64,000 nt of DNA from an uncultured Cyclobacteriaceae bacterium (GTDB taxonomy: Bacteria; Bacteroidota; Bacteroidia; Cytophagales; Cyclobacteriaceae), in assembly GCA_905479015.1 (NCBI GenBank), contig CAJQKV010000007.1, positions 124,001 to 188,000 on the forward strand, written 5' to 3'. The notes under the pieces were generated by a model. That model was not told the DNA's origin and ran no database searches. It saw nothing but the letters and a program-made list of their open reading frames with translations. The position numbers and the translations under genes were made by a program. Numbering within the stretch: the stretch's first letter is position 1; each line of letters starts with the position of its first letter. Below are positions 32,917 through 51,785 of the stretch, piece after piece.

Positions 32917-33087
32917 ATGTTTAATATTTTTAAAAAGACTTCACCTCTCCAAAAATTGTATCAGAAATATGAACAACTTTTGAAGGATGCTCACCAACTT
33001 TCAAAAACCAATCGTTCGCTAAGTGATCAAAAACATGCCGAAGCGGAAGAAATACTTAATAAAATTAAAGCTGCTGAAAGCAAATGA
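32917..33087 (+). CDS. Lacal_2735 family small protein
   Basis: 56 residues from the ATG at 32917; the longer upstream frame (from 32857) adds non-conserved residues. The sequence MFNIFKKTSPLQKLYQKYEQ followed by a helical region with KTNRSLSDQKHAEAEEIL matches the small Lacal_2735 family of marine Bacteroidota, of unknown function, which I know mainly from photolyase neighbourhoods. It is first in the photolyase operon; its stop overlaps the next start (ATGA). Confidence 0.7.
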   Translation: MFNIFKKTSPLQKLYQKYEQLLKDAHQLSKTNRSLSDQKHAEAEEILNKIKAAESK

Positions 33088-33368
33088 CAAACCCCTCTTT
33101 TTCTACAAACGAGGAGAATAGAATTATTGAAATGGCTTGGGAGGATCGCACTCCTTTCGAGGCCATTAATTATCAATTTTCTCTTCCAGAAAGTGGAGTC
33201 ATTGCGCTGATGCGAAAGCGGCTAAAAAGATCTAGCTTTAATTTGTGGAGATCTCGAGTACACCAAGGCATCAGTCAAAAACACGGCAAAAAAAGGAATT
33301 CTGAAATACAACGATTCAAATGTACACGCCAACGATCTATCACAAAAAATAAAATTTCGAAAAGATAA
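33084..33368 (+). CDS. TIGR03643 family (DUF2805) protein
   Basis: 94 residues. The helix-turn-helix-like core IIEMAWEDRTPFEAINYQF and GVIALMRKRLKRSSFNLWR is the signature of TIGR03643/DUF2805, a small basic protein typically encoded beside photolyases/cryptochromes. The C-terminal third is very basic (RFKCTRQRSITKNKISKR), consistent with DNA or RNA binding, which has not been shown. It starts within the stop of the Lacal_2735 gene and is 13 nt before the first photolyase homologue. Confidence 0.8.
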   Translation: MTNPSFSTNEENRIIEMAWEDRTPFEAINYQFSLPESGVIALMRKRLKRSSFNLWRSRVHQGISQKHGKKRNSEIQRFKCTRQRSITKNKISKR

Positions 33369-33381
33369 ATACTAAACCTTA

Positions 33382-34470
33382 ATGGCGTTTTTTCCTACCC
33401 AGTTTAGCGATATATACCAGCGTCTCAAATCCATAGATCCTGAGAAATATAGCCATACAAGAAACTATGTAGATGGGGCTGTAACGTACTTGTCTCCCTA
33501 CATCTCAAGAGGGGTAATTTCTACGAAAACAGTTTTTAACTATTTGTTGGAAGAGGAATATCCCTTTGAAACCATTGAAAAATATGTGCAAGAATTGGCT
33601 TGGCGTGATTATTGGCAACAAGTTTGGATTCATAAAAAATCTGCGATAAATACGGACTTAAAAAGTCAACAGCAAGAAGTTCAACATTATGAAATTCCCA
33701 CCGCTATATTGACAAAATCAACAAGTATCGAAGCCATAGATAGAGCGATTAAAGCATTGGAAGATACCGGCTACATGCACAATCACATGCGCATGTACGC
33801 CGCAGCTCTCATTTGTAATATGGGTAAAAGTCATTGGTTGACCCCTTCGCGATGGATGTATTATCATTTATTGGATGGAGACTGGGCTAGCAATGCCTTG
33901 AGCTGGCAATGGGTAGCGGGTAGCAACGCATCAAAAAAATATTATGCAAATCAAGCGAACATTAATAAATTTTTTAGGACGGATCAACGCAATACTTTCT
34001 TGGACTGCGATTATGATGTTTTAGTCAATCGTCCCTGCCCTAACGCTTTAGTCCCAACGACGTTACCTCTATTCAAAACAGAACTGCCAGAGCCTCAAAC
34101 AATGGTCATAACACCGAGTGAGCCTATCCTTGTTTATAACTATTATAACCTAGATCCAAATTGGCGCCATGAGGGTGATTATAACCGTATTCTTTTACTA
34201 GAACCTAAAATTTTCGAACAATATCCGATCGCGCCTAAAAATATTGAATTCATGCAAGCCTTGGGGATAAATATTAAAAATTTACAAGTATATGTCGGCT
34301 CCTTTGAGGCCTTAAGTAAAAGCTATCCAAATCAAGAGATCATTTATAAAGAGCATCCCCTAAATGTGCATTATGTAGGTACTGAAGATGCGAGAGATTG
34401 GATGTTTGATGTGCAGGGCTATTTCCCCTCTTTTTTTGCTTTCTGGAAAAAATGCAAGAAACATTTGTGA
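33382..34470 (+). CDS. Photolyase/cryptochrome homologue with FAD-binding domain first (apparently permuted)
   Basis: 362 residues. The protein begins directly with the helical FAD-binding domain: YLSPYISRG (36-44), ELAWRDYW (71-78), TGYMHNHMRM (129-138) and ASNALSWQWVAGS (169-181) match the FAD-binding motifs of class I photolyases. The alpha/beta antenna domain that normally comes first is missing from the N-terminus, but residues about 247-362 look like an alpha/beta domain and end in YFPSFFAFWKK, resembling the 'Y-x-F-T-P-F-x-x-x-W' segment that closes the normal N-terminal domain. This suggests a circular permutation. Its 3' end overlaps the next photolyase gene by 19 nt. Activity is unknown. 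Confidence 0.82.
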   Translation: MAFFPTQFSDIYQRLKSIDPEKYSHTRNYVDGAVTYLSPYISRGVISTKTVFNYLLEEEYPFETIEKYVQELAWRDYWQQVWIHKKSAINTDLKSQQQEVQHYEIPTAILTKSTSIEAIDRAIKALEDTGYMHNHMRMYAAALICNMGKSHWLTPSRWMYYHLLDGDWASNALSWQWVAGSNASKKYYANQANINKFFRTDQRNTFLDCDYDVLVNRPCPNALVPTTLPLFKTELPEPQTMVITPSEPILVYNYYNLDPNWRHEGDYNRILLLEPKIFEQYPIAPKNIEFMQALGINIKNLQVYVGSFEALSKSYPNQEIIYKEHPLNVHYVGTEDARDWMFDVQGYFPSFFAFWKKCKKHL

Positions 34471-35930
34471 AAGAGAAAAAAAACCCGGTTAACCTCGTAT
34501 GGATAAAAAGAGATATCCGAACACAAGATCATGCAGCACTTGAAGCTGCAGAGCAAGCTCAGATTCCCTATCTCATCGTTTATTTATTTGAGCCTTCTTT
34601 GCTCGCTTATCCCGATAGTTCCTTAAGACACCAACAATTTATATACAACTCATTGGCCGATGCCAATAAAACCCTCCATTTTTTCAATCGATCTATACAA
34701 ATTTGCTATGTTGAAGCGCCTCTTTTTTTTGAATTCATCCTCAATCATTTTGATCTAAAATCGGTCTATTCCTATCAGGAATCGGGTATCAAACTGACTT
34801 GGAACAGAGATCGAAAGGTGACGGAAATTCTTAAAAAAAACAACGTTTATTGGCATCAATTTCAAAAAGGTGGGGTCATAAGAGGGATGAACAATCGGAA
34901 AAATTGGGATCGAGTGTGGCTCAAGGATATCGCCATTCCACCCATCAAAAATGTATTCACTCAAAACGAACAACCTCCCTTCAATCATCCGTTTTCCTTA
35001 CCTCCCACTTTAGCATCAAAATTCCTTGAAGTTACTCCTCATTTACAAGCCGCTGGTGAGACGCAGGCTTGGAAATACTTGATCTCATTTACCCATGATA
35101 GAGGTAAAAATTATCATAAAATGATCTCTAAACCCCTTGAAAGCAGAAAGTCTTGTGGAAGAATCTCTCCCTACTTATCTTGGGGTAATTTGAGCATCAA
35201 ACAGGCGATGTATCATGTCTCTGATCACGCGGATTTTGAAAAACATAAACGTGCTTTTGGGGGTCTCATGACACGCCTCAAATGGCATTGCCATTTCATT
35301 CAAAAATTTGAAGTGGAATGTGACTATGAAATCTTATGCGTCAATAGAGGCTACGAATCCCTAGTAAGAGTTGAAAATAATAACCATCTGCTGGCTTGGC
35401 AATCAGGACGTACCGGTTTTCCATTGGTAGATGCCTGTATGAGGTGTCTTCACACCACGGGTTGGATTAATTTTCGTATGCGTGCCATGTTGGTATCCTT
35501 GTTATGTCATCACCTAGACCAAGATTGGAGAACTGGCGTCTATCACCTCGCCCAATTATTCCTTGACTATGAACCAGGCATTCATTATCCACAATTTCAA
35601 ATGCAAGCAGGTACGACCGGTATTAATACAGTCCGGATTTATAACCCTATAAAACAGTCTTACGAACATGATCCTGAGGGTATATTCATTAAAAAGTGGG
35701 TACCTGAACTCATTAATGTACCCATTCCCTTTATCCACGAGCCTTACAAAATGAATCATTTTGATCAATCTTGTTATGGTATTGAAATGGGCGTTGACTA
35801 TCCCTTTCCCATCGTAAATTTGGAGGAAAGTGGAAAAATAGCTCGAGAAAAAATTTGGGGCCACCGGAAAGGCCAAAAAGTAAAAAAAGAAAGTCAAAGA
35901 ATTTTAAAAACACATGTCAGAAAACAATAA
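34452..35930 (+). CDS. Cryptochrome/deoxyribodipyrimidine photolyase family protein
   Basis: 492 residues in the normal domain order. The N-terminal alpha/beta domain starts NLVWIKRDIRTQDHAALE; the FAD domain contains RISPYLSWGNLS, TRLKWHCHFIQKFE and TGWINFRMRAML. The usual 'GTDAAPYFRIFNP' segment is replaced by TTGINTVRIYNPIKQS, so this is a divergent clade, not a canonical CPD photolyase. The extreme C-terminus is very basic (from about 470). It is third from the operon's start region, overlapping the permuted homologue by 19 nt, and is followed 2 nt later by a flavin reductase. Confidence 0.88.
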   Translation: MQETFVKEKKNPVNLVWIKRDIRTQDHAALEAAEQAQIPYLIVYLFEPSLLAYPDSSLRHQQFIYNSLADANKTLHFFNRSIQICYVEAPLFFEFILNHFDLKSVYSYQESGIKLTWNRDRKVTEILKKNNVYWHQFQKGGVIRGMNNRKNWDRVWLKDIAIPPIKNVFTQNEQPPFNHPFSLPPTLASKFLEVTPHLQAAGETQAWKYLISFTHDRGKNYHKMISKPLESRKSCGRISPYLSWGNLSIKQAMYHVSDHADFEKHKRAFGGLMTRLKWHCHFIQKFEVECDYEILCVNRGYESLVRVENNNHLLAWQSGRTGFPLVDACMRCLHTTGWINFRMRAMLVSLLCHHLDQDWRTGVYHLAQLFLDYEPGIHYPQFQMQAGTTGINTVRIYNPIKQSYEHDPEGIFIKKWVPELINVPIPFIHEPYKMNHFDQSCYGIEMGVDYPFPIVNLEESGKIAREKIWGHRKGQKVKKESQRILKTHVRKQ

Positions 35931-35932
35931 AT

Positions 35933-36589
35933 ATGTATTTATCAGAATCTAGTATTGAAAAAATGCCTCATGTCAAAAGATTGAATATCATTAATTCAGT
36001 CTCAGGTATTAAACCAGGCAACTTAATTGGTACCAAAGACAAAAATGATCAAACGAACTTAGCCATCATAAGCTCTGTCGTTCATCTAGGCAGTAACCCT
36101 CCCTATCTTGGATTCATTTTACGCCCTGATCAAAATGTGCGCAGGCATACGCACGAAAACATTTCAGAAAATAAGGTATTTACCATCAATCACATTCCTT
36201 CCGATTTCATTGAACGAGCACATTATACCTCAGCTAAATTTGATAAAAATATTTCTGAATTTCAGAAGTGTGGATTTACTGAGGAATACTATGAGGATTT
36301 CACGGCACCTTTTGTCAAAGAAAGTAAATTAAAAATGGGCTTAATCCATGAAGAAAGTGTCCCCATAAAATCCAGTAATACACTCATGATCATTGGAAGA
36401 ATATTACATTTAATCATTCCTGACACCTCTCTGAGTGAAGAAGGATATATTGACTTAGGTGTTGCGGACAGTGTTGGTATCTCTGGACTAAATGCCTACT
36501 ATACACTCAAAAAAGTAGGCGAGTTCCCATACGCTCGTGTAGAAAAAACCCCTGAGTTTAATGATAAAAAAACAAAATTTACCTCATAA
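35933..36589 (+). CDS. Flavin reductase-like, FMN-binding split-barrel protein
   Basis: 218 residues from the ATG at 35933, 2 nt after the preceding photolyase stop; the frame is open further upstream but inside that gene. Recognisable flavin-reductase features are [47 protein letters not shown] and the [11 protein letters not shown] strand. It probably reduces or stores free flavin; in this operon it could supply reduced FAD or FMN to the photolyases, which is inference. The DUF2256 gene starts inside its last codons (29-nt overlap). Confidence 0.8.
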
Positions 36590-36704
36590 AATATGTCCTG
36601 TATGTGCACGTCCCTTCAACTGGAGAAAAAAATGGCGACTGTCATGGGATCAAGTAATTTATTGTAGCAAACGTTGCCGAAGCCAAAAGAATGAAAGGAA
36701 TTAA
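36561..36704 (+). CDS. DUF2256 family small zinc-finger-like protein
   Basis: 47 residues, between the flavin reductase and the next photolyase homologue, overlapping both (29 and 14 nt). Two CxxC-type knuckles are present: CPVC at residues 12-15 and CSKRC at 35-39, with a conserved [16 protein letters not shown] stretch between. This is the DUF2256 pattern, a tiny protein encoded beside cryptochrome/photolyase genes in many bacteria. Zinc binding is inferred from the cysteines; function is unknown. Confidence 0.85.
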
Positions 36705-38175
36705 CATTATATTTCCCCACCAACTTTTTCAAACACATGTCCTGTACGAGAATGGATATGATATTTACATGATCGAAGAGCCCTTGTTCTTTTCACAATA
36801 TAAATTTCATAAAATGAAGTTGGCCTACCACCGTGCTACCATGAAAGCACACGCTAGCTACTTGGAATCCAAAGGCCTTACGGTGCATTACATAGAAGTT
36901 GGTGATCAAAGATCAGATTTAGGGCATTTACTGAGCCTGCTCTCTACCCAAAAACAGGAGGTAATCAACCTTGTTGATCCTACCGATTACTGGTTAGAAA
37001 AAAGAATAAAACAAGCTGCACTACAGCAAAAAATCAAACTTAACTTCTACGAGAATCCTATTTTCATCAACACCCGCTCAGATCTTAGTAACTTCTTTAG
37101 TCCTCATAAAAAAAAGTATTTTCAAACTTCTTTTTATAAACAATCTAGAATCAAACAACATATTTTAGTTGATACTGCAGATCAGCCCATCGGTGGGAAA
37201 TGGAGTTTTGATGATGAAAACAGGAAAAAATATCCTAAAAATAAGCTTCCTCCGACCATTAAAAGTCCGTTAAATAATTCTTTTTGGAGCGAGGCCTTGA
37301 TCTACGTTGAAGCACATTATGCGAAGAATCCCGGTAACCTTACGCCAAAACCTTTATATCCCATCGATGGGCCTACCACTCAAAAATGGCTAGCAGCCTT
37401 TTTTGAACATCGATTTGAAGACTTTGGTACTTATGAAGATGCTATCGTTAAAGATGAGCTCTTCTTGAATCACAGTGTCTTGTCCCCGATGCTCAACATA
37501 GGACTGATCTCACCAAAGTCCATCATTGATGCGGCCCTTCTTCATGCCAAAAAAGCTGATATCCCACTAAATTCGTTGGAAGGCTTTATCCGTCAAATAA
37601 TGGGCTGGCGTGAATTTATAAGGGGCATGTATATTTCGCAGGGTTCTGTTTCTCGATCTACCAATTACTGGGGATTCAAACGTAAAATACCCTCTAGTTT
37701 TTATGACGGTACGACTGGCATATATCCCATTGATCAAACCATTCAAAAAATCCTGAAAACTGGGTACTGTCATCATATTGAACGTCTCATGGTCTTGGGG
37801 AATTTCATGGTACTTTGTGAGTTTGATCCAGATGAGGTCTACCGTTGGTTTATGGAGTTATTCATAGATGCCTATGATTGGGTCATGGTCCCTAACGTAT
37901 ATGGTATGAGTCAATTTGCAGATGGGGGTCTTTTCGCAACTAAACCCTACATCAGTGGATCTAATTACATAATGAAGATGAGTGATTATCCCAAAGGAGA
38001 TTGGCAACCGATCTGGGATGCCCTATTCTGGAGGTTTATGGATGTCCATCGACTGTTTTTTATAAAAAATCCACGGCTTGGTTTACTCATAAAGACTTTT
38101 GACAAGATGGAAGATCAGAAAAAAAACCAATTCCATACGACCGCCAACCAGTTCATAAACCAATTAAATGCATAG
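36691..38175 (+). CDS. Cryptochrome/photolyase of the bacterial (6-4)/PhrB-like family, Fe-S motif absent
   Basis: 494 residues. The N-terminus [10 protein letters not shown] and [17 protein letters not shown], the [20 protein letters not shown] segment, [28 protein letters not shown] and [20 protein letters not shown] are hallmarks of the FeS-BCP ((6-4) photolyase, PhrB-like) family. In that family the motif after the MSDY segment normally carries three of the four Fe-S cysteines. Here it reads [18 protein letters not shown] (430-447) with none; C360 is the only cysteine nearby. So the protein probably lacks the 4Fe-4S cluster. It ends the photolyase operon. Confidence 0.88.
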
Positions 38176-38276: not shown

Positions 38277-39758
38277 ATGAATTTAATCACTGAAAAATTA
38301 TGCTTCATTTTTACACTTGGTATTTGCCTCAGTTGCACCTCAAATAATACGCCCCTGATGACTGAAAAAAATACACCAAATACCGTTCGATCCGTTCCCA
38401 CTTCCGCCCGCATCTACACCACCGCAAAGGATACAGATTTAAGATTACAACGAACAGCTGATCTCAACTTTAAAGAGGGGAAACAGCCGCTAGAAACAGA
38501 ATTATCTATTTTTATAAATCCTGAGAAAACCTTTCAAACTATGGTTGGCATTGGTGGTGCCATAACCGATGCATCCGCTGAAGTTTTTGCCAAAATGTCC
38601 CCTGAAAAACAAGAGCTATTCTTGGAAGCCTATTATGGAAAAAATGGGATTGGATACAGCCTCCTAAGAACTACAATTCACAGCTGTGACTTTAGTGAAA
38701 AGTCATATACGTATATACAAGAAGGTGATAGTGAGCTCGAGACCTTTGATATCACGCCAGACTTGAGCTACCGGGTGCCCCTCATTAAGAAAGCCATTGC
38801 CAAAGCAGGGGGGTCTTTGTTGACCTATGTAAGTCCGTGGAGTCCGCCCGCGTTTATGAAGACAAATGGGAGTATGCTTCAAGGGGGCAGTTTATTGCCC
38901 GATTTTTACGAATCTTGGGCACGTTACTATGCCAAGTTCATCAAAGCGTATGAGGCACTTGATATTCCTATTTGGGGTCTAACCATTCAAAATGAACCCA
39001 TGGCAACCCAGCGTTGGGAATCCTGTATTTACACAGCACAAGAAGAAAGAGATTTTCTGAAAAATTACTTGGGACCCATATTGGCCGCCGAGGGATTAGG
39101 AGATAAAAACATCATTGTTTGGGATCACAACCGTGACCTTATCACCAATCGAGCCAATACGATATTAGGTGATCCGGAAGCGGCTAAATATGTTTGGGGT
39201 ACCGGATTTCATTGGTATGAAACCTGGACCGGCAGTAAAGCCAAATTTGATAACTTAGGAAAGGTCAAGGAATCGTTTCCCGATAAAGAATTGATGTTCA
39301 CCGAAGGTTGTAATGAGAATTTTGACGCCAATAAATATCAGTTTTGGCCTAATGCTGAGCGCTATGGCAACTCTATGATCAACGATTTTAATCAAGGAAC
39401 GGCAGGCTGGACCGATTGGAATATCCTCTTAGATCAAAATGGTGGTCCCAATCATGTGGCTAACTTTTGTTTTGCACCTATCCATGGTGATACAGAGACC
39501 GATGAGCTTATTTTGACACCAACTTATTATTATATTGGACATTTTTCAAAATATATCCGTCCGGGTGCCAAAAGAGTCAGTACGGTCAGTAGCAGAAGCT
39601 TTCTCCAAGCCACTACTTTCGTCAATCCAGATGATTCATATGCCACTGTCATCATGAATGATAGCAATGAGACCATAGATTATCACATGTATGTAGGCAC
39701 ACAGAAAATAGCTTCATCCATTCCTCCAAGAGCCATCCAAACGATTGTGTATGATTAG
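38277..39758 (+). CDS. Glycoside hydrolase family 30 lipoprotein
   Basis: 493 residues. Lipoprotein signal with lipobox LSC at C20, so it is membrane-anchored outside the cytoplasm. The GH30 (TIM barrel plus beta-sandwich) signature is complete: GIGGAITDASAEVF, YVSPWSPPAFMKTNGSM, acid/base E240 (IQNEP) and nucleophile E343 (MFTEGCNE). GH30 members cleave beta-1,6-glucan, glucosylceramide or xylan; the bacterial clade this resembles acts on beta-glucosidic links. With the GH16 enzyme at 53.6 kb it may take part in algal beta-glucan use. It appears to be a single gene. Confidence 0.9.
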   Translation: MNLITEKLCFIFTLGICLSCTSNNTPLMTEKNTPNTVRSVPTSARIYTTAKDTDLRLQRTADLNFKEGKQPLETELSIFINPEKTFQTMVGIGGAITDASAEVFAKMSPEKQELFLEAYYGKNGIGYSLLRTTIHSCDFSEKSYTYIQEGDSELETFDITPDLSYRVPLIKKAIAKAGGSLLTYVSPWSPPAFMKTNGSMLQGGSLLPDFYESWARYYAKFIKAYEALDIPIWGLTIQNEPMATQRWESCIYTAQEERDFLKNYLGPILAAEGLGDKNIIVWDHNRDLITNRANTILGDPEAAKYVWGTGFHWYETWTGSKAKFDNLGKVKESFPDKELMFTEGCNENFDANKYQFWPNAERYGNSMINDFNQGTAGWTDWNILLDQNGGPNHVANFCFAPIHGDTETDELILTPTYYYIGHFSKYIRPGAKRVSTVSSRSFLQATTFVNPDDSYATVIMNDSNETIDYHMYVGTQKIASSIPPRAIQTIVYD

Positions 39759-39790
39759 CATTTATGATCAAGAATGGGTGTGAAGAGTAA

Positions 39791-42560: not shown

Positions 42561-42570
42561 ATTTAAATAC

Positions 42571-43227
42571 ATGGCAAAGAAAAATAAGTCTCAAAAAGAC
42601 ATCATCACAGCGTACATGCAGCATGTACTAGAGCACAGCAGTACTCCAGAGTCAGTTTATAAATTTGGTAAGGATAATGGTTTTACTGAAGCTGAATTTT
42701 ATAACTTTTTTGGCACCTTTGAATCGCTTGAAAAATCTATTTTCAGCAACTTTTTTGACAACACCATGATGCTTCTTGAAAAAAATGAAGAATATCAAAA
42801 TTTCGATGCGCAAAATAAACTACTCAGCTTTTACTTCACCTTCTTTGAAGTACTCAAAGCTAACAGAAGCTATGTCATCATGACCCTCTCCACCCACAAA
42901 CCTAGTCTTAAGACACATGGCGTGTTGGTCGGGCTAAAAGAAGCGTTCAAGAAATTTGTAGATGGATTAGATATCGAAACATTGGATTTAAAACAAGAAA
43001 AATTGGAAGAAGTAAAGCAGAAAGGACTCTCCGAGCTCTCTTGGCAACAATTATTATTTACCATTAATTTTTGGATGGAGGATTCCAGTGCTTCCTTTGA
43101 AAAAACAGACATTTTTATTGAAAAATCTGTAAAAACGAGTTTTGAACTAATGAACATCACCCCACTGAAAAGTCTGTTAGATTTAGGTAAATTTTTTGTG
43201 AAAGAGAAAATAATGGGTAAAAATTAA
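42571..43227 (+). CDS. TetR family transcriptional regulator
   Basis: 218 residues. The N-terminal TetR-type helix-turn-helix is recognisable (DIITAYMQHVLEHSSTPESV then KFGKDNGFTEAEFYNFFGTF) although the first helix lacks the usual positively charged start. The C-terminal ligand domain is Bacteroidota-specific. It ends exactly at the base before the next start codon (43228). As second gene of the light-response operon it may provide a second input, or tune the operon to a lipid ligand. Confidence 0.75.
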   Translation: MAKKNKSQKDIITAYMQHVLEHSSTPESVYKFGKDNGFTEAEFYNFFGTFESLEKSIFSNFFDNTMMLLEKNEEYQNFDAQNKLLSFYFTFFEVLKANRSYVIMTLSTHKPSLKTHGVLVGLKEAFKKFVDGLDIETLDLKQEKLEEVKQKGLSELSWQQLLFTINFWMEDSSASFEKTDIFIEKSVKTSFELMNITPLKSLLDLGKFFVKEKIMGKN

Positions 43228-44550
43228 ATGGAGACAATCGATCAAATTCCAATAACAAAAATTCAGCGAGCGACCAAAATCGTTAAGACTGGAGCAAAAG
43301 TAGGTGTCAACTACATCAAATACTATGGCAACCGCATAACACAAGAAGAAGAGGAAGCTAAAAAGACATTAAACAATGCCAATGCCGATGATATCTATGA
43401 TGGCCTCAAAAATCTCAAAGGCAGTGCGCTAAAGGTGGCTCAAATGCTGAGTATGGAAAAATCTATCATGCCCGCAGCTTATGTAGAAAAATTTTCCCTT
43501 TCACAATTTTCTGTGCCCCCATTGTCACCGGCACTTGTTAATAAAACTTTTAGAAAATACTTTGGGAAATCTGCCCATGAAATTTTTGATAAGTTTGATG
43601 CCACCTCTGTCAATGCCGCCAGCATTGGTCAAGTACATCAGGCTGAAAAAGAGGGTAAAAAAATAGCCGTAAAAATTCAATATCCTGGGGTTGCAGGAAG
43701 TATCAGCAGCGACCTGTCTTTGATAAAGCCCATTGCTATTCGCATGTTTAATATCAAGGGCAAAGATTCCGATAAGTATTTTAAAGAGGTAGAAGAAAAA
43801 CTCATCGATGAGACCAACTATATACTTGAGGTAGATCAAAGTATTGAAATTGCAAAGGCATGCAAGCACATTCCTAATATGAAGTTCCCTGAATACTACA
43901 AAGAATATTCAACCGATCGCATCATAAGCATGGAATGGATGAATGGACTCCATCTGACAGAATTTGCCGCTCAAAATAGTGACCCCGTGTTGGCCAACAA
44001 AATTGGTCAAGCCCTTTGGGATTTCTACATGTATCAAATTCATGTCTTAAGAAAAATGCATGCGGATCCACATCCTGGAAATTTTCTAGTGTCAAAAGAA
44101 GAGGATCTCATCGCACTTGATTTTGGTTGTATGAAAAGTTTACCTGATGAATTTTATTACCCTTATTTCACACTCTCAGAGAAAGAAAATATCAATAATA
44201 AAAGTCTATTTGAAAAGAAACTTTATGAACTCGAAATTTTAAGATCTGATGATTCAAAAAAGGAGCTTGATTTTTTCAAGGAAGTATTTTATGATCTGCT
44301 CAGCCTGTTTACACAGCCCTTTCACACAGATTATTTTGACTTTTCAAATAAAACCTTCTTTGATGCCCTCTCAAATATGGCACAAGAGTTTGCTCAAAAA
44401 ACGGAATTAAGAAAATACAATGGGAATCGAGGATCTAAACATTTTATCTATGTGAATCGGACTTTTTTTGGTTTATATAACTTGATGCATACGCTAAAAG
44501 CGACGCATATTGAAATAAAAAGTCCTTTGGCACTTAAAAAAATAGCGTAA
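43228..44550 (+). CDS. ABC1/UbiB/AarF family atypical kinase
   Basis: 440 residues of the UbiB protein-kinase-like family. Visible features are the KxxQ motif (GSALKVAQMLSME), the ATP-binding segment SIGQVHQAEKEGKKIAVKIQYPGV-like region, and the catalytic HADPHPGNFLV plus LIALDFGCMKSL metal-binding DFG-like motif. UbiB relatives support quinone and lipid metabolism; in plants, ABC1K proteins act in photo-oxidative stress and prenyl-lipid homeostasis. It is tightly placed between TetR and glutathione peroxidase genes. The true substrate is unknown. Confidence 0.87.
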   Translation: METIDQIPITKIQRATKIVKTGAKVGVNYIKYYGNRITQEEEEAKKTLNNANADDIYDGLKNLKGSALKVAQMLSMEKSIMPAAYVEKFSLSQFSVPPLSPALVNKTFRKYFGKSAHEIFDKFDATSVNAASIGQVHQAEKEGKKIAVKIQYPGVAGSISSDLSLIKPIAIRMFNIKGKDSDKYFKEVEEKLIDETNYILEVDQSIEIAKACKHIPNMKFPEYYKEYSTDRIISMEWMNGLHLTEFAAQNSDPVLANKIGQALWDFYMYQIHVLRKMHADPHPGNFLVSKEEDLIALDFGCMKSLPDEFYYPYFTLSEKENINNKSLFEKKLYELEILRSDDSKKELDFFKEVFYDLLSLFTQPFHTDYFDFSNKTFFDALSNMAQEFAQKTELRKYNGNRGSKHFIYVNRTFFGLYNLMHTLKATHIEIKSPLALKKIA

Positions 44551-44553
44551 CCT

Positions 44554-45081
44554 ATGATCACTGCCAAAATAGCTCCGACAAAACTTACGCCAAAGTTTTA
44601 TGAATTGGCAGCCAAAAATGCGGCTGGAGATGAGATGCAATTTGATCAATTCAAAGGCAAAACAGTTTTGATTGTAAATACAGCGACACGTTGTGGATTG
44701 GCCCCACAATTTAAACAGCTCGAGAAATTATATCATGATTATCAAGCGCAAGGGCTCGTCATTTTAGGCTTTCCTTGTAATCAATTCATGTCCCAAGAAC
44801 CTGAATCGAATGAGACAATGGAGACTTCCTGCCTCTTAAAATACGGGGTTACCTTTCAATTGATGTCAAAAACAAAAGTAAATGGCCCCAATGCACATCC
44901 GGTATTTAAATACTTAAAAAATGAATTATCTGAGTTATTTGGAAGTCGAATCAAGTGGAATTTCACGAAATTTCTAATCACCAATTACGGAAGTCCGTTT
45001 CGAAGATACGGCCCATATACAAACCCAATTGCGCTAGAAAAAGACATCAAAAAGCTTCTCGCGAGAAAAACGAAAATTTGA
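44554..45081 (+). CDS. Glutathione peroxidase family protein
   Basis: 175 residues, thioredoxin-fold. Peroxidatic Cys is in NTATRCGLAPQ; the catalytic Gln is in FPCNQF, and Trp/Asn in KWNFTKFLI. A cysteine in the usual resolving position (about residue 90, TSCLLKYG) suggests a thioredoxin-dependent reaction, as for most bacterial GPx-like proteins. It reduces hydroperoxides. Position in the light operon fits protection from photo-oxidised lipids. Confidence 0.9.
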   Translation: MITAKIAPTKLTPKFYELAAKNAAGDEMQFDQFKGKTVLIVNTATRCGLAPQFKQLEKLYHDYQAQGLVILGFPCNQFMSQEPESNETMETSCLLKYGVTFQLMSKTKVNGPNAHPVFKYLKNELSELFGSRIKWNFTKFLITNYGSPFRRYGPYTNPIALEKDIKKLLARKTKI

Positions 45082-45091
45082 CCTCTTCAGC

Positions 45092-46507
45092 ATGAAAATA
45101 TTATTAACAGGAGCAACGGGTTACATTGGAAAAAGACTGCTCCTCGAATTAATATACCATGGCCATCACATAGTTTGTAGCGTTCGAGACAAAAATAGAT
45201 TTTCTGCACCCGCCTCTATTTTAAACCAAATAGAAGTCATTGAAGTTGATTTTTTGGATTTCAAGTCTCTAGAAAAAATACCCCAAGATATTGAGGGTGC
45301 TTATTATCTGATGCATTCCATGTCTAATACCCATGATTATGAAAAATTAGAAAAACAATCTGCTATTCATTTTCGTGAAATTATGAAGGGTAAAGATGTG
45401 CGACATGTCGTTTACCTCAGTGGTATTACCAATGAGGACTCATTGTCAGCACATTTATCATCCCGACGTACTGTCGAGCATGAATTAGGACTGGGTTCTT
45501 ATCCTTTGACTACATTACGCGCAGGCATCATTATTGGATCGGGCAGTGCTTCTTTTGAGATCATTCGTGATTTGGTCGAAAAGTTACCTATTATGATTAC
45601 TCCAAAATGGTTGAATACTAGATGTCAGCCCATAGGTGTTGACAATGTCCTAGATTGTTTGGTGAAAACACTAGGCAATGAAAAAACTTATGATCAAAAT
45701 TTTGATATTGGGGGACCTGAAATCATGACCTATAGACAAATTCTACTTGGCTTTGCCCAGGTCCGAAATTTGAAGCGGGCCATCATTACTGTTCCCATAA
45801 TGACACCCAAGTTGTCCTCCTATTGGCTGTATTTTGTCACCTCCACCTCTTTTAAATTAGCTTCAGCCCTAGTCAGCAGTATGAAAGTCGAAGTGGTGTG
45901 TAGAGATCTTAAACTGCTCGAAATTTTAAATGTTGAACCCATCAATTATCATGAGGCCCTCAAAAGAACTTTATCAGAAATTGTAGAAAATCGAATTGTA
46001 TCCAGCTGGAAAGATTCCTTGATCAGCAGTGCATTCAATCTCAATATCTCAGAATTTCTTCAGGTACCCGTCTTTGGGTGTTTTCGAGATCAAAGATCAC
46101 ATCAAATCTTAAATAAAAAAGAATGTGTTGATCGTATTTGGCGCATCGGAGGGCAAAGAGGCTGGTATTACGCCAATGGCCTGTGGAAGCTACGGGGATT
46201 TATAGATAAACTATTTGGGGGGGTTGGGTTGCGCAGAGGTAGAACGCAAGAAGACACGCTCCATGTCGGGGATGCCATAGATTTTTGGCGTGTTTTATAT
46301 GCAGACAAAGAAGAAGGTAGATTACTGTTATTTGCTGAAATGAAACTCCCCGGGGAAGCTTGGTTAGAATTCAAAGTTAAAGGAACCTATTTGGAGCAAA
46401 CGGCTACTTTCAGACCCAAAGGTGTTTGGGGTCGACTTTACTGGTATGCTGTTTTTCCCTTTCATGGTTTTATCTTTAAAGGCATGTTAAATAACCTTAC
46501 AAAATAA
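45092..46507 (+). CDS. NAD(P)-binding epimerase-like protein with DUF2867 domain
   Basis: 471 residues. N-terminal atypical SDR domain (about 1-230) with the nucleotide loop LLTGATGYIGKRL and YYLMHSM; C-terminal DUF2867 domain (about 320-465) with GWYYANGLWKLRGFIDKL, GLRRGR and FRPKGVWGRLYW. This fused architecture is widespread in photolyase/LitR neighbourhoods; its reaction is unknown. The stop TAA directly abuts the photolyase ATG at 46508. Confidence 0.85.
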   Translation: MKILLTGATGYIGKRLLLELIYHGHHIVCSVRDKNRFSAPASILNQIEVIEVDFLDFKSLEKIPQDIEGAYYLMHSMSNTHDYEKLEKQSAIHFREIMKGKDVRHVVYLSGITNEDSLSAHLSSRRTVEHELGLGSYPLTTLRAGIIIGSGSASFEIIRDLVEKLPIMITPKWLNTRCQPIGVDNVLDCLVKTLGNEKTYDQNFDIGGPEIMTYRQILLGFAQVRNLKRAIITVPIMTPKLSSYWLYFVTSTSFKLASALVSSMKVEVVCRDLKLLEILNVEPINYHEALKRTLSEIVENRIVSSWKDSLISSAFNLNISEFLQVPVFGCFRDQRSHQILNKKECVDRIWRIGGQRGWYYANGLWKLRGFIDKLFGGVGLRRGRTQEDTLHVGDAIDFWRVLYADKEEGRLLLFAEMKLPGEAWLEFKVKGTYLEQTATFRPKGVWGRLYWYAVFPFHGFIFKGMLNNLTK

Positions 46508-47797
46508 ATGAAAATCGCTATTTTTTGGTTCCGAAGAGATCTTCGACTTGAGGATAATACTGCGCTTCATGCGGCGTTAAAATCAGGTAACCAAGTACTT
46601 CCCATATTTATATTTGATCAAGATATCTTGTCCGATTTACCAGAGCAAGATGCACGATTGGGCTTTATTCATGATTTATTAACAGATATCAATTCAAGCC
46701 TTCATACGCTTGGAAGTGGGGTACAATGTTTGTTTGGTAGTCCACTTAATGTTTGGAAATCCTTGATTGAGACTTACGACATTTCCTCAGTGTTCATCAA
46801 CAAAGACTATGAACCCTATGCACGGAAAAGAGATCAAGAAATTGCCGCCTTACTCTCAGAAAATGGTATTGTCTTACATACCTTCAAGGATCAGGTAATT
46901 TTTGAAGAAAATGAAGTTTTAAAGGCAGATGGCAAACCTTATACTGTTTTTACTCCCTATAAAAATAAATGGCTTTCTCATTTCAACAAAGAAATGTTAC
47001 CATTTGAAGCTTCCGACTTCAAAGCCCTATATAAACAAACGCAAGTTTTACCCTCTTTGATTAGTATGAATTTCAAAGTTGCCACCATAAAGGTTAAGCC
47101 CTATGATCTCTCATCACTGAGCGAATACATCAAAAGTAGAGACTTACCCAGTACAGATAATACGAGCTATCTGAGTCCACATTTGAGATTTGGGAGTGTC
47201 AGTGTCCGAAAAATTATCAGTACACTTAAAGAAACAGATGCGGTCTTTTTAAGCGAACTGATCTGGCGTGAATTTTTCATGCAAATAATCTACCATTTCC
47301 CAAGAGTCATAACTGAGAACTTTAAGGTTAAATACAACAGCATCGTTTGGAGAAATGATCAACAGGAATTTGAAAAATGGTGTGCAGGTAAGACGGGTTA
47401 TCCTATGGTTGATGCGGGTATGAGACAATTGAACGCCACGGGATATATGCATAACCGCGTGCGCATGGTCACTGCAAGTTTTCTGTGTAAGCATTTACTC
47501 ATTGATTGGCGTTGGGGAGAAGCCTATTTTGCTCAAAAACTTTTAGATTATGAGCTTTCTTCTAATAACGGCAACTGGCAATGGTCGGCAGGTACGGGCT
47601 GTGATGCTACCCCTTATTTTAGGGTATTTAATCCAACTTCACAACAACAAAAATTCGATGGCAAAGGAATTTATGTCAAAAAATGGATTCCTGAATTAGA
47701 TTCCTTTGACTATGTCCCTCCAATGGTTGATCACAAATTGGCACGTGAAAGAGCCTTGAGTACCTATAAAATAGGCCTTGCAGCGTATCAAAATTAA
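46508..47797 (+). CDS. phr: Deoxyribodipyrimidine photolyase (class I, CPD-type)
   Basis: 429 residues, complete. Repairs cyclobutane pyrimidine dimers with light energy and reduced FAD. N-terminal antenna domain begins IAIFWFRRDLRLEDNTAL and ends YTVFTPYKNKW. The FAD domain has the canonical YLSPHLRFGSVS, ELIWREFFMQI, TGYMHNRVRMVTASFL and the segment GNWQWSAGTGCDATPYFRVF. Of the four homologues in the window it is the most canonical. It is the last gene of the SRPBCC operon, and its stop shares bases with the stop of the converging carotenoid operon. Confidence 0.94.
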   Translation: MKIAIFWFRRDLRLEDNTALHAALKSGNQVLPIFIFDQDILSDLPEQDARLGFIHDLLTDINSSLHTLGSGVQCLFGSPLNVWKSLIETYDISSVFINKDYEPYARKRDQEIAALLSENGIVLHTFKDQVIFEENEVLKADGKPYTVFTPYKNKWLSHFNKEMLPFEASDFKALYKQTQVLPSLISMNFKVATIKVKPYDLSSLSEYIKSRDLPSTDNTSYLSPHLRFGSVSVRKIISTLKETDAVFLSELIWREFFMQIIYHFPRVITENFKVKYNSIVWRNDQQEFEKWCAGKTGYPMVDAGMRQLNATGYMHNRVRMVTASFLCKHLLIDWRWGEAYFAQKLLDYELSSNNGNWQWSAGTGCDATPYFRVFNPTSQQQKFDGKGIYVKKWIPELDSFDYVPPMVDHKLARERALSTYKIGLAAYQN

Positions 47798-48498
47798 TGA
47801 GCTCTGGACTGTAAGGCTTTGGGTAAAAAGGTTTCGGTCAATAAAATATTCAGCAAAACCAAGCCCATGCCGTAAAATACATCCTCTACTGGAATGGTAA
47901 AGATTCGGATACCTAAATTCTCAGCATCGTTGTACCAAACGATGGGTGCATCAATTAAACTACCCGTAAGCACACCGTTGACCATTAAAAAGGGCAATAT
48001 AAGTAGGCCCCAAGCGATATAAAACCTCCTCAACAATATAGGTTTTGATACAAAAGTGACTACCAATATGGTCAATGTAAAAAAAGCATTGAAAGCAGTG
48101 TAGGTTTTATCAAAAAAGAACACCAGCATCAGCACTAAAATCAGAGCTAAAAAAGCACTGATCAGATTAGTCATACCTCTGGACAATCCCCCTTGGGGAG
48201 AGATCGCTATCAATGTGTAATGAGAAAAAACACAAGCAAAAGGGATACATACAAAGAAGAGCACTTCTTCAATGGGCAACTGCCAAATACGCAGCGCCAT
48301 GAGATAATCTGGGTTAAAACCCCAAATTCCTTGCACAGTAAAATAAATATCCCAGCTGAGGTAAGCACATCCACTGAGGACCATCGCAGGAAAAAAAGCT
48401 TTGAATTTCTTATGAAATTTTAGACGAGGATGAAAACTAAAAAAAAAGGGCACAAAAATAGTTGCAATATCTATTATCAAGTATAAATAATGCCTCAT
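47794..48498 (-). CDS. Lycopene cyclase (fused CrtYc-CrtYd type membrane protein)
   Basis: 234 residues from the ATG at 48498, which overlaps the crtZ stop (ATGA); the longer open frame begins with GTG at 48552 inside crtZ. About six to seven transmembrane helices in two repeats, each with a catalytic Pro-x-Glu-Glu/Asp motif: LPIEEVLFF and IPVEDVFYG. These are hallmarks of the heterodimeric-type cyclase domains fused into one chain, as in Bacteroidota and fungal CarRP. It cyclises lycopene to beta-carotene. Last gene of the crt operon. Confidence 0.88.
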   Translation of the reverse strand: MRHYLYLIIDIATIFVPFFFSFHPRLKFHKKFKAFFPAMVLSGCAYLSWDIYFTVQGIWGFNPDYLMALRIWQLPIEEVLFFVCIPFACVFSHYTLIAISPQGGLSRGMTNLISAFLALILVLMLVFFFDKTYTAFNAFFTLTILVVTFVSKPILLRRFYIAWGLLILPFLMVNGVLTGSLIDAPIVWYNDAENLGIRIFTIPVEDVFYGMGLVLLNILLTETFLPKALQSRAH

Positions 48499-48947
48499 CT
48501 GCTCCATTCTGATTTGAAATACTTGAGCGGGACTAGTAACATCCCAAAGCACTCCCCTTCCTCCTTCGTCTGGTTCTTATGATGTATTTTATGGGCTTTA
48601 CGTATGGCACGTAAGTAAGCATTATTTGATCTAGTGAAAATTTTAATTCTTTGATGTATGAAGATATCATGCACCAAAAAATAACAAAGACCATAAGCTG
48701 CGATACCAAAGCCAATAGCCATAAGATAAAAAATAGAAAAATGGGAGCCTAATACGATACAGAGCATACTTGGGGTGGCAAAAATCAAAAAGAAACTATC
48801 ATTCCGTTCAAAAATGTGTGCCTCATTTTCTCTGGTATGATGGTCTTCATGAAGATTCCAAAATAGGCCATGCATGATGTATTTATGGGCAAACCAAGCT
48901 ACGAATTCCATAAAAAAGAAAGTACCTACAAAAGCAATAATGTTCAT
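48495..48947 (-). CDS. crtZ: Beta-carotene hydroxylase (fatty acid hydroxylase superfamily)
   Basis: 150 residues from the ATG at 48947 (the open frame extends to a TTG at 48956). Membrane di-iron hydroxylase. The histidine clusters are visible: AHKYIMH, HEDHH, HDIFIHQR and HKIHHK, with membrane helices between them. It adds 3-hydroxyl groups to beta-ionone rings to make zeaxanthin. It lies between the unknown exported protein gene and the cyclase gene in the crt operon. Confidence 0.9.
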   Translation of the reverse strand: MNIIAFVGTFFFMEFVAWFAHKYIMHGLFWNLHEDHHTRENEAHIFERNDSFFLIFATPSMLCIVLGSHFSIFYLMAIGFGIAAYGLCYFLVHDIFIHQRIKIFTRSNNAYLRAIRKAHKIHHKNQTKEEGECFGMLLVPLKYFKSEWSR

Positions 48948-48976
48948 CGAGACCAATATGTTTTAGCTATTCAAAA

Positions 48977-49477
48977 TTAATCATTTATATCAAGTAAAAA
49001 AGCATTCAACCGACCCTGTTGTAAATCAGAAAGACGTTTCCCATTTAATAAATTGTCACAAAATTTTTTAATCCACGTCATATTTAACCCTGAATTCAAA
49101 ATATTACTGATATAAAATTCTAAGTCTGTTTCAATACTTTCGTCATAGCTTAAAAAGCTAGGTGCATTGAGTTGAACTAGCAGACGGAGGTATCTTAATT
49201 CTGGATTGTCTTGGTTTTGATCAATCGCCTGTTCAATTTTTTCTTTACCACTATTGAAATAATTCCATTTTTCTCCAGGCCAAAAAGCATTTTCTGCCAA
49301 CATGGTCTCCGAGACCCCTACATAAGCCATGACCAAAGGATTTGAATCCCATTGCGCATCTGATTGTAATGCATCTAAATAAGCCTGCGTAATTTTTTGA
49401 CTGTGGAATTCTATCCTGATACTCACTTCAGGGATACTCAATGGGGTTAATATGAGCCAAATAAAAATGATTTTCAA
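48977..49477 (-). CDS. Exported hypothetical protein within the carotenoid operon
   Basis: 166 residues. An N-terminal hydrophobic signal (about 1-18) is followed by a soluble helical domain; WPGEKWNYFNSGKEKIEQAI and NPELRYLRLLVQLNAPSFL suggest a TPR-like or helical-hairpin fold. I do not recognise a named family. The start overlaps the crtB stop by 4 nt (ATGA), so it is co-translated with phytoene synthase, which suggests a role in carotenoid metabolism or deposition; this is inference. Confidence 0.7.
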   Translation of the reverse strand: MKIIFIWLILTPLSIPEVSIRIEFHSQKITQAYLDALQSDAQWDSNPLVMAYVGVSETMLAENAFWPGEKWNYFNSGKEKIEQAIDQNQDNPELRYLRLLVQLNAPSFLSYDESIETDLEFYISNILNSGLNMTWIKKFCDNLLNGKRLSDLQQGRLNAFLLDIND

Positions 49478-50313
49478 ATGAAATTAAATTTAACTTTTAA
49501 ATAAGATTTAAAAAATAAATAAGTTTTCATAAAATTATTCACTCTTATCCTCGTTTCCAAGAGTCTCGATGACGGTGTTTTTTTAAGCTTTACCAAAAGC
49601 TCAAAATAATATGAATAGGCAGTATAAACTCCTAATTTAGCCACTAAAGGTAGTTGTGTAATTCCTATTTGAGCTGCATAAAAATCTTCCTGTATCTCTT
49701 TAATAATCCCGTCCTTAGATTTTTCATCTAAATTCTCTAAATCTACTTGAGGAAAGTAAGAACGATTTAAAACATCTAAATCGTTTTTAATATCTCTTAG
49801 AAAATTTACTTTTTGAAAAGCTGAGCCCAAGCGCATGGCGCTGTCTTTAAGTGATTCATAAAGTTGATCATTCCCCTCCACAAAAACTTTGAGACACATC
49901 AAGCCCACGACATCAGCAGATCCATAAATGTATTGCTTATACTCCTCCTTGGTACTATATTGCGTTTTATAAAGATCCATTTTCATACTTCGCATAAAAG
50001 CATCGACTAAGGATATGTCAATGTCATATTTAAGTATCGTTTTTTGAAAGGAATTGAGAATAGGGTTTAAACTAATTCCAACCTTGAGTGCCGCATAAAA
50101 ATCTTCTTCAAATTGCTTAAGTAATTCCTCTTGATTGTGCTCATGAAAGGTATCTACAATTTCATCTGCAAATCTCACAAACCCATAAATGTTATGAATG
50201 TCTTGTTGAATAGTCGGAGACAATAAGTTTACAGCCTTATAAAAGGAAGTGCTGTATCTGAGGGTTACTTCTTTGCTACACGCTTCGGTCAGCTCATCAT
50301 ATAACAACGTCAT
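49474..50313 (-). CDS. crtB: Phytoene synthase
   Basis: 279 residues of the squalene/phytoene synthase family. It condenses two geranylgeranyl diphosphates to phytoene. The two Asp-rich motifs are DEIVD (in GFVRFADEIVDTF) and D-I-K-N-D (in KVNFLRDIKNDLDVL), with RSYFP after the second. The start overlaps the crtI stop by 4 nt. Geranylgeranyl diphosphate synthase is not encoded in this window. Confidence 0.94.
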   Translation of the reverse strand: MTLLYDELTEACSKEVTLRYSTSFYKAVNLLSPTIQQDIHNIYGFVRFADEIVDTFHEHNQEELLKQFEEDFYAALKVGISLNPILNSFQKTILKYDIDISLVDAFMRSMKMDLYKTQYSTKEEYKQYIYGSADVVGLMCLKVFVEGNDQLYESLKDSAMRLGSAFQKVNFLRDIKNDLDVLNRSYFPQVDLENLDEKSKDGIIKEIQEDFYAAQIGITQLPLVAKLGVYTAYSYYFELLVKLKKTPSSRLLETRIRVNNFMKTYLFFKSYLKVKFNFI

Positions 50314-51785
50314 GTTAATACTTGTTTACTCGTGTTTTGAGAGATCAGTTCCGCCGCAATTTTACCAGAAATCAAAGAAGGGGGTACGCCCGGTCCTGGG
50401 ACGGTTAGTTGCCCAGTAAAATATAAATTTTTTACTTTTTTACTCATTATTTTTGGCCTTAAAAATGCCGTCTGGAGTAAGGTATTGGCCAATCCGTAGG
50501 CATTTCCTTTATAAGAATTATAATCCTCCTTAAAATCATTGAGGCAATAGGACTCCTTAAAGGAAATGAATGTTTTTATGGATTGTTTAGTGTGCTTTTC
50601 TAATCGTGCGAGTATCATATCAAAATACTTTTCTCGTAAGGTTTCAGAGTCTTCTAGATCTGGTGCCAAAGGAATGAGAAAAAAACCACTTTCCTTGCCC
50701 TCGGGAGCAACCGTAGGATCTGTCAGACTCGTGAAACTGGCGTAAAATAAAGGAGCCTTCGGCCATTTAGGATCATCATATATTTCACTGGCATGGGCTT
50801 CAAAATTAGTATCAAAAAACAACATATGATGCAGTATGCCAGATAGTTTTGTATCAAAACCGACATAAAACAATAACGATGAGGGTGCAAACGTCTTTTT
50901 CTGCCAATAAGATTCTTTGTAAGATCTTAGTGCAACAGGCAATAAAGTTTCTGTATGATGGTAGTCCGCGCCGCTCAGTACTAAATCTGAATGTATCAAG
51001 GCTCCATCAATTACTAACCCTTGTACTTTCCCCTTATCGGTAGCAATTTTTTCGACATTGCTTCCCGTATGAATTTTCACACCGAGCGATAAAGCCAACG
51101 TTTCCATGGCTTCGACAACCTTGTACATACCTCCCATTGGATACCAGGTGCCCAAAACAAAATCTGCATGATTCATGAAATTATAAAAGGCAGGTGTATC
51201 TTGAGGTTTAGCTCCCAAAAATAACACAGGGAATTCCAAAATTTTGATGAGCTTTGGATTCTTAAAACGTTTCCTTATTTGATGGCTGATGGTCACCACA
51301 AACTGATCTAGCTTCTTGACAGTTTCAAAGGTCACTAGTTCAAGCGGTGAAATACCTGGTTTATAAACCAACTTCTCAATAGCGATGCGATAATTATGGC
51401 CCGCATCTTCAAGAAATTTAGCTAAAAGGTTACCCGCTCCCGCTTCTTCTTTTTCAAATATTTTAAAAATCTCATCTAATGAATCTGGAATATCTATAAA
51501 GGTACCATCTTCAAAATACACCCTATAAGCGGGGGCCAGACGTTTCAGATCATAGAAATCAGAAGTTTTCTTTCCAAAATCTTGAAAGAACTTATCAAAA
51601 ACATCAGGCATCCAATACCAACTAGGTCCCATGTCGAAGGTAAACCCTTCTTTGACCATTTTTCGAGCCCTTCCCCCTATAGATACATTTTTTTCAAATA
51701 CATCTATCTCAAACCCTGCCTTGGCCAGATAACACGCAGCAGACAAAGAAGAAAAGCCAGAACCAATAATATTTACTTTTTGCAT
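50310..51785 (-). CDS. crtI: Phytoene desaturase
   Basis: 491 residues, FAD-dependent CrtI-type desaturase. The N-terminal dinucleotide fold is IIGSGFSSLSAACYLAKAGF with the adenine-binding VFEKN; GGRARKM and DMGPSWYWMPDV follow. The C-terminal carotenoid-desaturase signature is YFTGQLTVPGPGVPPSLISG. Desaturates phytoene to lycopene. It is the first gene of the minus-strand operon crtI - crtB - unknown - crtZ - cyclase, in which all junctions but one overlap. Confidence 0.95.
   Translation of the reverse strand: MQKVNIIGSGFSSLSAACYLAKAGFEIDVFEKNVSIGGRARKMVKEGFTFDMGPSWYWMPDVFDKFFQDFGKKTSDFYDLKRLAPAYRVYFEDGTFIDIPDSLDEIFKIFEKEEAGAGNLLAKFLEDAGHNYRIAIEKLVYKPGISPLELVTFETVKKLDQFVVTISHQIRKRFKNPKLIKILEFPVLFLGAKPQDTPAFYNFMNHADFVLGTWYPMGGMYKVVEAMETLALSLGVKIHTGSNVEKIATDKGKVQGLVIDGALIHSDLVLSGADYHHTETLLPVALRSYKESYWQKKTFAPSSLLFYVGFDTKLSGILHHMLFFDTNFEAHASEIYDDPKWPKAPLFYASFTSLTDPTVAPEGKESGFFLIPLAPDLEDSETLREKYFDMILARLEKHTKQSIKTFISFKESYCLNDFKEDYNSYKGNAYGLANTLLQTAFLRPKIMSKKVKNLYFTGQLTVPGPGVPPSLISGKIAAELISQNTSKQVLT

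Follow-up and report, generated by a model that had tools for sequence, protein, structure and literature searches.

Why would a bacterium crowd four photolyase homologues into a few kilobases, and what do the small proteins encoded between them do? The question is raised by a stretch of 64,000 nucleotides (nt) from an uncultured Cyclobacteriaceae bacterium (GCA_905479015.1, contig CAJQKV010000007.1, positions 124,001-188,000, forward strand), here called the window. Between 32.9 and 51.8 kb it contains two dense operons, the gene of a CarH-like B12 regulator and a carotenoid (crt) operon of five genes. The four photolyase homologues are old, distinct lineages, the operon that holds three of them recurs in other genomes, and one of its small genes, DUF2256, is linked to photolyases there, too. 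We consider it probable that the locus is a light-induced island of photorepair and photoprotection, in which DUF2256 would act as a photolyase accessory.

Operon 1 and the four photolyase lineages

An initial annotation of this DNA had seen three photolyase homologues in a seven-gene operon and a fourth one in a second operon. Every gene it named is indeed present in its place, with an open frame, and the packing is tight. In operon 1 (32917-38175) the seven genes are spaced by -4, 13, -19, 2, -29 and -14 nt, in operon 2 (42090-47797) the six genes by 10, 0, 3, 10 and 0 nt. Operon 1 consists of:

about 32917-33087, + strand: small protein of the Lacal_2735/DUF6435 family, 56 amino acids (NF033487, 81.5 bits; PF20027)
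33084-33368, + strand: small protein DUF2805/TIGR03643, possibly helix-turn-helix (PF10985, E 3e-32; TIGR03643, 106 bits)
33382-34470, + strand: NewPHL/SPL-like photolyase of inverted topology, in which the flavin adenine dinucleotide (FAD) domain precedes the alpha/beta domain (FAD_binding_7; structure model; full-length relatives)
34452-35930, + strand: CPF2, an uncharacterised class I/DASH-related photolyase/cryptochrome subgroup with a motif of the GIHYPQxQMQ type (PF00875 and PF03441)
about 35933-36589, + strand: flavin reductase-like protein (PF01613, E 5e-14; the scan used a longer open reading frame from 35855)
36561-36704, + strand: DUF2256, a zinc-finger-like protein of 47 amino acids with CxxC...CSxxC (PF10013, 72 bits; translation)
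36691-38175, + strand: DPRP, a (6-4)-type photolyase of prokaryotes that lacks the four iron-sulphur (Fe-S) cysteines (PF04244, E 1e-52; PDB 7ykn, E 6e-79; alignments and cysteine columns)

The genome (2.93 Mb, 99.88% complete) yields four matches to FAD_binding_7, all of them inside the island. A maximum-likelihood tree was calculated from 73 rows of FAD domains, thinned from larger sets and with long branches for Ruegeria, Deinococcus and Sphingomonas. In it the window homologues take four separate places. The inverted short enzyme belongs to a clade of 13 rows (support 99/96), CPF2 to one of 14 rows (100/100) and the window DPRP to one of 11 rows (96/93), which is joined with the clade of Fe-S-type DPRP at 100/100; the 9 class I rows form no single resolved clade. 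Because of these four separate places, the homologues are old lineages, and recent duplication of one photolyase is ruled out. The claim of four distinct subfamilies in the initial annotation thus stands. The fourth homologue, the class I photolyase of operon 2 (46508-47797), groups with class I enzymes and carries the NNGxWQW motif. It does not reach the NCBIfam equivalog cut-offs; its best PDB hits are 4u63, 2e0i, 1tez, 1owl and 1dnp.

The inverted short photolyase

In the inverted enzyme Pfam recognises the FAD domain alone, in residues 69-197. An AlphaFold2 model based on 58 relatives (predicted local distance difference test, pLDDT, 96.1; predicted template-modelling score, pTM, 0.93) has a helical FAD domain followed, from about residue 247, by an alpha/beta domain. 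A Foldseek search with this model found the FAD core of solved photolyases as best matches, over some 200 columns and with TM-scores to the model below 0.5. Between the second domain and the N-domains of normal photolyases hhalign detected no sequence link (E 0.015-0.12). With its N-terminal FAD-binding domain and smaller C-terminal domain, the enzyme has the domain order of the NewPHL/SPL class, which is said to have been defined by Emmerich 2020 and Xu 2021.

The type is not rare in Bacteroidota: near-full-length relatives occur in 17 of 296 genomes, its own included and one of them in two pieces, and partial relatives in two more. The FAD-first topology is the one described for NewPHL/SPL (PMC13274461, PMC9426592). 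Members of this class, Phr7 included (PMC9426592), share with the window enzyme the FAD-first order, the short second domain and the lack of an Fe-S cysteine set. The enzyme has no four-cysteine Fe-S motif, since an alignment of 17 rows has a single conserved cysteine, present in 16 of them.

The clade of the inverted enzyme is joined by the Ruegeria and Deinococcus rows (99/91 and 99/83), both long branches; the Ruegeria protein, annotated merely as FAD-binding domain-containing, is NewPHL-like by shape only. Its FAD domain is 33% identical to that of the inverted enzyme (68/209), whereas the second domains cannot be aligned by sequence. In Ruegeria sp. TM1040 (L186:3974-6576) the NewPHL-like gene is followed by the gene of an AarF/ABC1/UbiB kinase, a type also encoded in operon 2 of the window. 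The inverted short photolyase of a Deinococcus plasmid (L187:3872-5242) carries, unlike the window enzyme, a CxxC...C cluster (CAGCPLADAEC).

CPF2 and DPRP

CPF2 reaches the cut-off of none of the NCBIfam models that it matches. A PDB profile search ranked a Synechocystis cryptochrome (1np7) and a Sulfolobus photolyase (2e0i) highest, none of the solved structures being close. Where class I enzymes carry NNGxWQW, CPF2 reads GIHYPQFQMQ. In 54 aligned rows, the column that we take to be the proximal tryptophan position is filled by F, L, I or V, and the presumed second tryptophan position by an invariant methionine; the middle tryptophan (W359) is invariant. CPF2 thus brings to notice a photolyase/cryptochrome lineage that dispenses with both the usual proximal tryptophan and the usual FAD asparagine. 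It is not a DASH cryptochrome: it scores 128 bits against a TIGR02765 cut-off of 317, and the DASH-like rows are found in a clade of their own (100/99); the one of them that was tested, from L102, scores 507 bits. Orthologues of CPF2 occur in Salinivibrio and Tritonibacter. The PhrSph98 type, another conceivable identity of CPF2, is placed beside class II (PMC9649867).

The DPRP enzyme is closest to solved 6-4 photolyases, as the 7ykn match indicates. Its DPRP N-domain and PhrB-type FAD domain make it a prokaryotic (6-4) photolyase in the wide sense, and the tree agrees. With the FeS-BCP enzymes (PhrB, CryB) it shares the DPRP domain and full-length similarity, but not their four [4Fe-4S] cysteines: MSDYPKGD replaces MSDY-CxxC, and the cysteines of the PhrB cluster are absent. 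In 49 aligned rows, cysteine columns are found at positions 376 (47 rows), 360 (33) and 110 (18) of the window protein; by our reading of the alignment, no cysteine of the PhrB cluster faces any of them. The Fe-S cysteines are likewise missing from PromaPL/group M (PMC9178010, PMC9426592). Views on the lesion differ, PromaPL being counted among the 6-4 photolyases in PMC9178010, whereas repair of cyclobutane pyrimidine dimers (CPDs) is suggested for Fe-S-less forms in PMC9426592.

Recurrence of the operon

Photolyase-centred loci from other genomes were compared in two sets of 40 and 80, all selected by way of the inverted enzyme or CPF2; 119 are distinct, L068 and L135 being the same contig, and the genomes G150 and G204 contributed two each. 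The 80, chosen by the inverted enzyme, are the best 80 of at least 579 relatives (594 pattern-matching stretches among the matches listed); 44 of them exceed 20 kb, 36 are under about 20 kb.

The six-gene core DUF2805-NewPHL-CPF2-flavin reductase-DUF2256-DPRP is complete in five of the 119 distinct loci, in four of them in the order of the window (L132, L162, L164 and L180, all from the 80) and in another order in L074, from the 40. L164 reads TetR-ABC1-Lacal-SRPBCC-DUF2805-NewPHL-CPF2-flavin reductase-DUF2256-DPRP and so unites parts of the two operons of the window. Partial runs occur in 69 of the 80 loci, where the inverted gene is accompanied by at least one other query gene. Its neighbours are DPRP in 42 loci, DUF2805 in 41, DUF2256 in 39, CPF2 in 31, flavin reductase in 23 and Lacal_2735 in 13; in the 44 longer loci the respective counts are 26, 25, 28, 15, 12 and 11. 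As a limited control, the parts of the window beyond 32-54 kb were searched with the same queries and gave no match but the kinase itself. What recurs is an operon that pairs inverted with normal photolyases.

Is the locus unusual, as had been claimed? In its combination it is, the same four photolyase classes being together in none of the 119 distinct loci. In number it is not: four homologues are also present in L102 and L105, where a DASH-clade protein replaces the inverted type. Both of these loci contain TetR, ABC1, flavin reductase, SDR-DUF2867, DUF2256, the DASH-clade protein, DPRP, CPF2, DUF2805, GPx, Lacal_2735, SRPBCC and class I. Parts of operon 1, moreover, recur widely. Photolyase clustering as such is not new either, because a cluster enriched in proteorhodopsin-bearing flavobacteria has already been published (Kumagai et al., PMC5932025); the window genome, with its rhodopsin gene and its island, fits this pattern. 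The six-gene operon, the presence of the inverted enzyme in it and the link of DUF2256 to photolyases were not found in the literature searched; the supplementary gene list of PMC5932025 may include DUF2256 or DUF2805. The parts, then, are of known kinds, and the operon form was not found described. The ultraviolet-B operon of Synechococcus sp. PCC 7335 (PMC9649867) also has two overlapping photolyase genes. There, however, a photolyase is combined with a bifunctional enzyme that is grouped next to class II, while the window has three other classes together with DUF2256, DUF2805 and flavin reductase.

One member of the Bacteroidota genome sample, G297 (locus L121), has a record labelled Rhodobacteraceae and is probably a mislabelled metagenome-assembled genome. 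A cross-phylum comparison based on it therefore covered some of the 296 genomes a second time and does not enter the counts.

DUF2256 and DUF2805

The genome has a single DUF2256 match, the one in operon 1. The family is one of the metal-binding fingers grouped in the TRASH clan (PMC4047054), and it is common among bacterial proteins no longer than 50 residues (PMC11796252). In an alignment of 69 rows, 93% or more of them share K4, L7, P8, K10, C12, C15, F19, W21-R22-K23-K24-W25, W29, V32, Y34, C35, S36 and C39. Among the 296 Bacteroidota genomes, 100 have DPRP, 94 have DUF2256 (two of them by weak matches, E >1e-6) and 86 have both; DUF2805 is found in 84, of which 70 also have DPRP. Since Fisher values ignore kinship, the association was stratified by family. 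The test comprises 144 of the 296 genomes, all with a listed family label and spread over 19 families of at least two members; it leaves out single-member families, listed families uniform for DPRP, which contribute nothing to the statistic, and genomes outside the listing, which have neither gene. Within families the DUF2256-DPRP link persists with a Mantel-Haenszel odds ratio of 120 and a Cochran-Mantel-Haenszel chi-square of 54.5; for DUF2805 and DPRP the same test gives a chi-square of 29.7.

The link is also visible in the position of the genes. Forty-eight of the 94 DUF2256 genes have DPRP, CPF2 or the inverted gene no more than 5 kb away, each time on the same strand (48/48). On plasmids DUF2256 matched 132 records, and 14 of the 60 listed were inspected, one per genus, so that the counts hold for these genera and not for the others listed. 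Five of the 14 copies adjoin DPRP (Rhizobium, Acinetobacter, Novosphingobium) or CPF2 (Salinivibrio, Tritonibacter) on the same strand, a sixth (Sphingomonas) has a class I photolyase next door on the opposite strand, and in two TIGR03643 is the neighbour. A DUF2256 search of a phage collection gave no match. In the literature searched, no link of DUF2256 or TIGR03643 to photolyases was found, nor a tie to light in the available text of the papers that name DUF2256 (PMC4047054, PMC11796252).

A role of DUF2256 as Fe-S chaperone only was rejected, because it adjoins the Fe-S-less DPRP of the window, Fe-S-type DPRP (Rhizobium, Acinetobacter, Novosphingobium) and CPF2 alike. Judged from sequence, DUF2256 would probably be an accessory dedicated to DPRP and CPF2, an estimate that applies to this role jointly with the whole island model. 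Far more tentatively, one may think of a dedicated zinc-finger partner of the DPRP and CPF2 lineages in both Bacteroidota and Proteobacteria, without which the active enzyme would not be made or not be targeted, and of the six-gene operon as a multi-enzyme unit that would repair single-strand, duplex and 6-4 damage together.

The initial annotation had proposed all unknown genes of the operons as photoprotection candidates. The proposal holds best for DUF2256 and DUF2805, the strongest candidate partners of photorepair among the small unknown genes of the island; the others are neighbours in a minority of loci (of 40 and of 80, respectively: Lacal_2735 in 2 and 13, SRPBCC in 8 and 2, ABC1 in 6 and 2, SDR-DUF2867 in 10 and 3). 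DUF2256 thereby gains a directly testable function and DUF2805 a lead. The structure model of DUF2805 is helical (mean pLDDT 76); its fold search gave no significant match (best E 0.52) and its PDB profile search none up to E 1. A correlation study of marine metagenomes groups DUF2805 with translation-linked domains (PMC3597751), which speaks against a role in photorepair.

Operon 2, carotenoids and proposed light control

The regulator, operon 2 and the crt operon comprise the following genes:

40961-41866, - strand: CarH/LitR-like MerR regulator with B12-binding domain (PF13411, PF02607; TransRegCarH; alignment to 3whp)
42090-42560, + strand: SRPBCC (polyketide cyclase-like) protein (PF03364, E 3e-4, under cut-off)
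42571-43227, + strand: TetR-type regulator (TetR_C_23, PF17931)
43228-44550, + strand: ABC1/UbiB-like atypical kinase (PF03109; UbiB model under cut-off)
44554-45081, + strand: glutathione peroxidase-like (GPx-like) protein (PF00255)
45092-46507, + strand: NAD(P)-binding short-chain dehydrogenase/reductase (SDR) fused to DUF2867 (PF13460, PF11066)
46508-47797, + strand: class I photolyase (PF00875 and PF03441; PDB profile hits; tree)
47794-48552, - strand: lycopene cyclase, CarR type (PF18916; TIGR03462)
48495-48956, - strand: putative CrtZ-like carotene hydroxylase, assigned by position and by eye (no Pfam or NCBIfam match; gene order as in PMC7064467)
48977-49477, - strand: hypothetical protein of the crt operon (no family match)
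49474-50313, - strand: phytoene synthase CrtB (PF00494; NCBIfam CrtB models matched under cut-off)
50310-51785, - strand: phytoene desaturase CrtI/CrtID (CrtID, 718 bits, above the cut-off of 640)

The five-gene carotenoid operon (47794-51785, - strand) is present as first described and meets operon 2 tail to tail. Its order, cyclase-crtZ-hypothetical-crtB-crtI, is that of a light-induced cluster of Chryseobacterium lacus (PMC7064467), for which the authors propose an unknown light regulator, whereas the window has a CarH-like gene 6 kb away. This gene lies between operons 1 and 2, after genes of GH30 and a CDP-alcohol phosphatidyltransferase. Its product aligns with Thermus CarH (3whp, E 1e-18) and keeps W, EH and ExHxxG, which we take to be B12-binding residues, including the presumed lower-ligand histidine. 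Another contig of the genome carries genes for a rhodopsin and a cob(I)alamin adenosyltransferase, which we count as support for the island model; they are about 5 kb apart (G000:C35:81278-87123).

Light control of the island operons by CarH is plausible by analogy, from the neighbourhood and from experimental LitR/CarH systems (PMC9758184). The Pseudomonas system of that article likewise combines a MerR regulator of the LitR/CarH type with phrB, SDR and cryB genes; its LitR, however, is of class II, with partial similarity to the B12-binding part, and its light response is experimental, while that of the window is predicted.

How the island might work we infer as follows. In the dark, CarH loaded with adenosyl-B12 would repress; light would break the Co-C bond and free the promoters. 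Operon 1 would then provide three different photolyase-fold flavoproteins with helpers, operon 2 the class I photolyase with proteins that protect against peroxide and protect membranes, and the crt operon carotenoids that quench photo-oxidants. CPDs would be repaired by the class I enzyme in duplex DNA and by the inverted enzyme in single strands, and 6-4 (or CPD) lesions by DPRP; CPF2 may be a photolyase or a cryptochrome. The flavin reductase might supply or maintain reduced flavin, and DUF2256 might help DPRP and CPF2 to load their cofactor or fold, or to reach damaged DNA.

Alternative explanations

Several findings weigh against this model, and some concern the regulator. It had been called an intact CarH type, which is true of W, EH and the lower-ligand histidine. 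Yet asparagine replaces His132 of Thermus CarH, and the score is 92 bits against an NCBIfam equivalog cut-off of 400. Elsewhere CarH is seldom near photolyase genes (4 of the 40 loci, 1 of the 80). The upstream regions of operon 1, carH/operon 2 and crt revealed no CarH box and no shared motif above shuffles (best 16-mer mismatch sum 7; 4-8 in ten shuffles), nor a promoter consensus, as judged by a Bacteroidota promoter pattern and by a scan for sigma-70 promoters and terminators, which stayed at shuffle level. The genes might therefore be grouped for repair and their expression set by DNA damage, oxidative stress, nitric oxide or the TetR of operon 2 instead of CarH light sensing. Nitric oxide comes into play because genes of an H-NOX protein and a hybrid histidine kinase lie directly upstream of operon 1, in divergent orientation, and TetR recurs somewhat more often than CarH (in 6 of the 40 and 2 of the 80 loci). 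The H-NOX query, however, had no match in the 40 and 80 loci and the kinase query scattered ones only. CarH, in turn, is placed between both operons and is found with crt and photolyase genes again in L078, L090, L092 and L094 (of the 40). We regard control by such other signals as conceivable, yet doubtful.

With similar reserve we view the idea that DUF2256 is functionally unconnected to photolyases, a general small protein of light or ultraviolet stress whose profile follows sunlit habitats. It would explain why 46 of the 94 DUF2256 genes have none of the three photolyase types within 5 kb, why eight of the 94 genomes have DUF2256 without DPRP (14 of 100 have DPRP without DUF2256), and why eight of the 14 sampled plasmid copies have no annotated photolyase within 3 kb. 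It fits less well with DUF2256 tracking DPRP within families, as in f7, where 16 genomes have both, 13 neither and none one alone, or with the adjacent or overlapping same-strand pairs of DUF2256 and photolyase genes in Bacteroidota and, with the same two photolyase types, in Proteobacteria. Ordinary clustering of repair genes through horizontal transfer, without any coordinated system, appears rather improbable: gene order is indeed shuffled between taxa, and the inverted gene is alone in 11 of the 80 loci and with DUF2805 only in 10, but reading frames overlap in the window and the same-strand order is repeated in other genomes. A light-induced island with DUF2256 as accessory thus remains the reading we favour.

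Surroundings of the island

An Rfam scan of 28-54 kb gave no match at gathering score. The H-NOX (haem-NO-binding) gene and the adjoining gene of the hybrid GAF/PAS histidine kinase occupy 29126-32624 on the - strand; the kinase includes a receiver domain and matches Hpt weakly. Genes of polysaccharide use flank the island: GH30 at 38277-39758, between the operons, and a sugar transporter of the MFS type with GH16 at 52034-54804, beside the crt operon.

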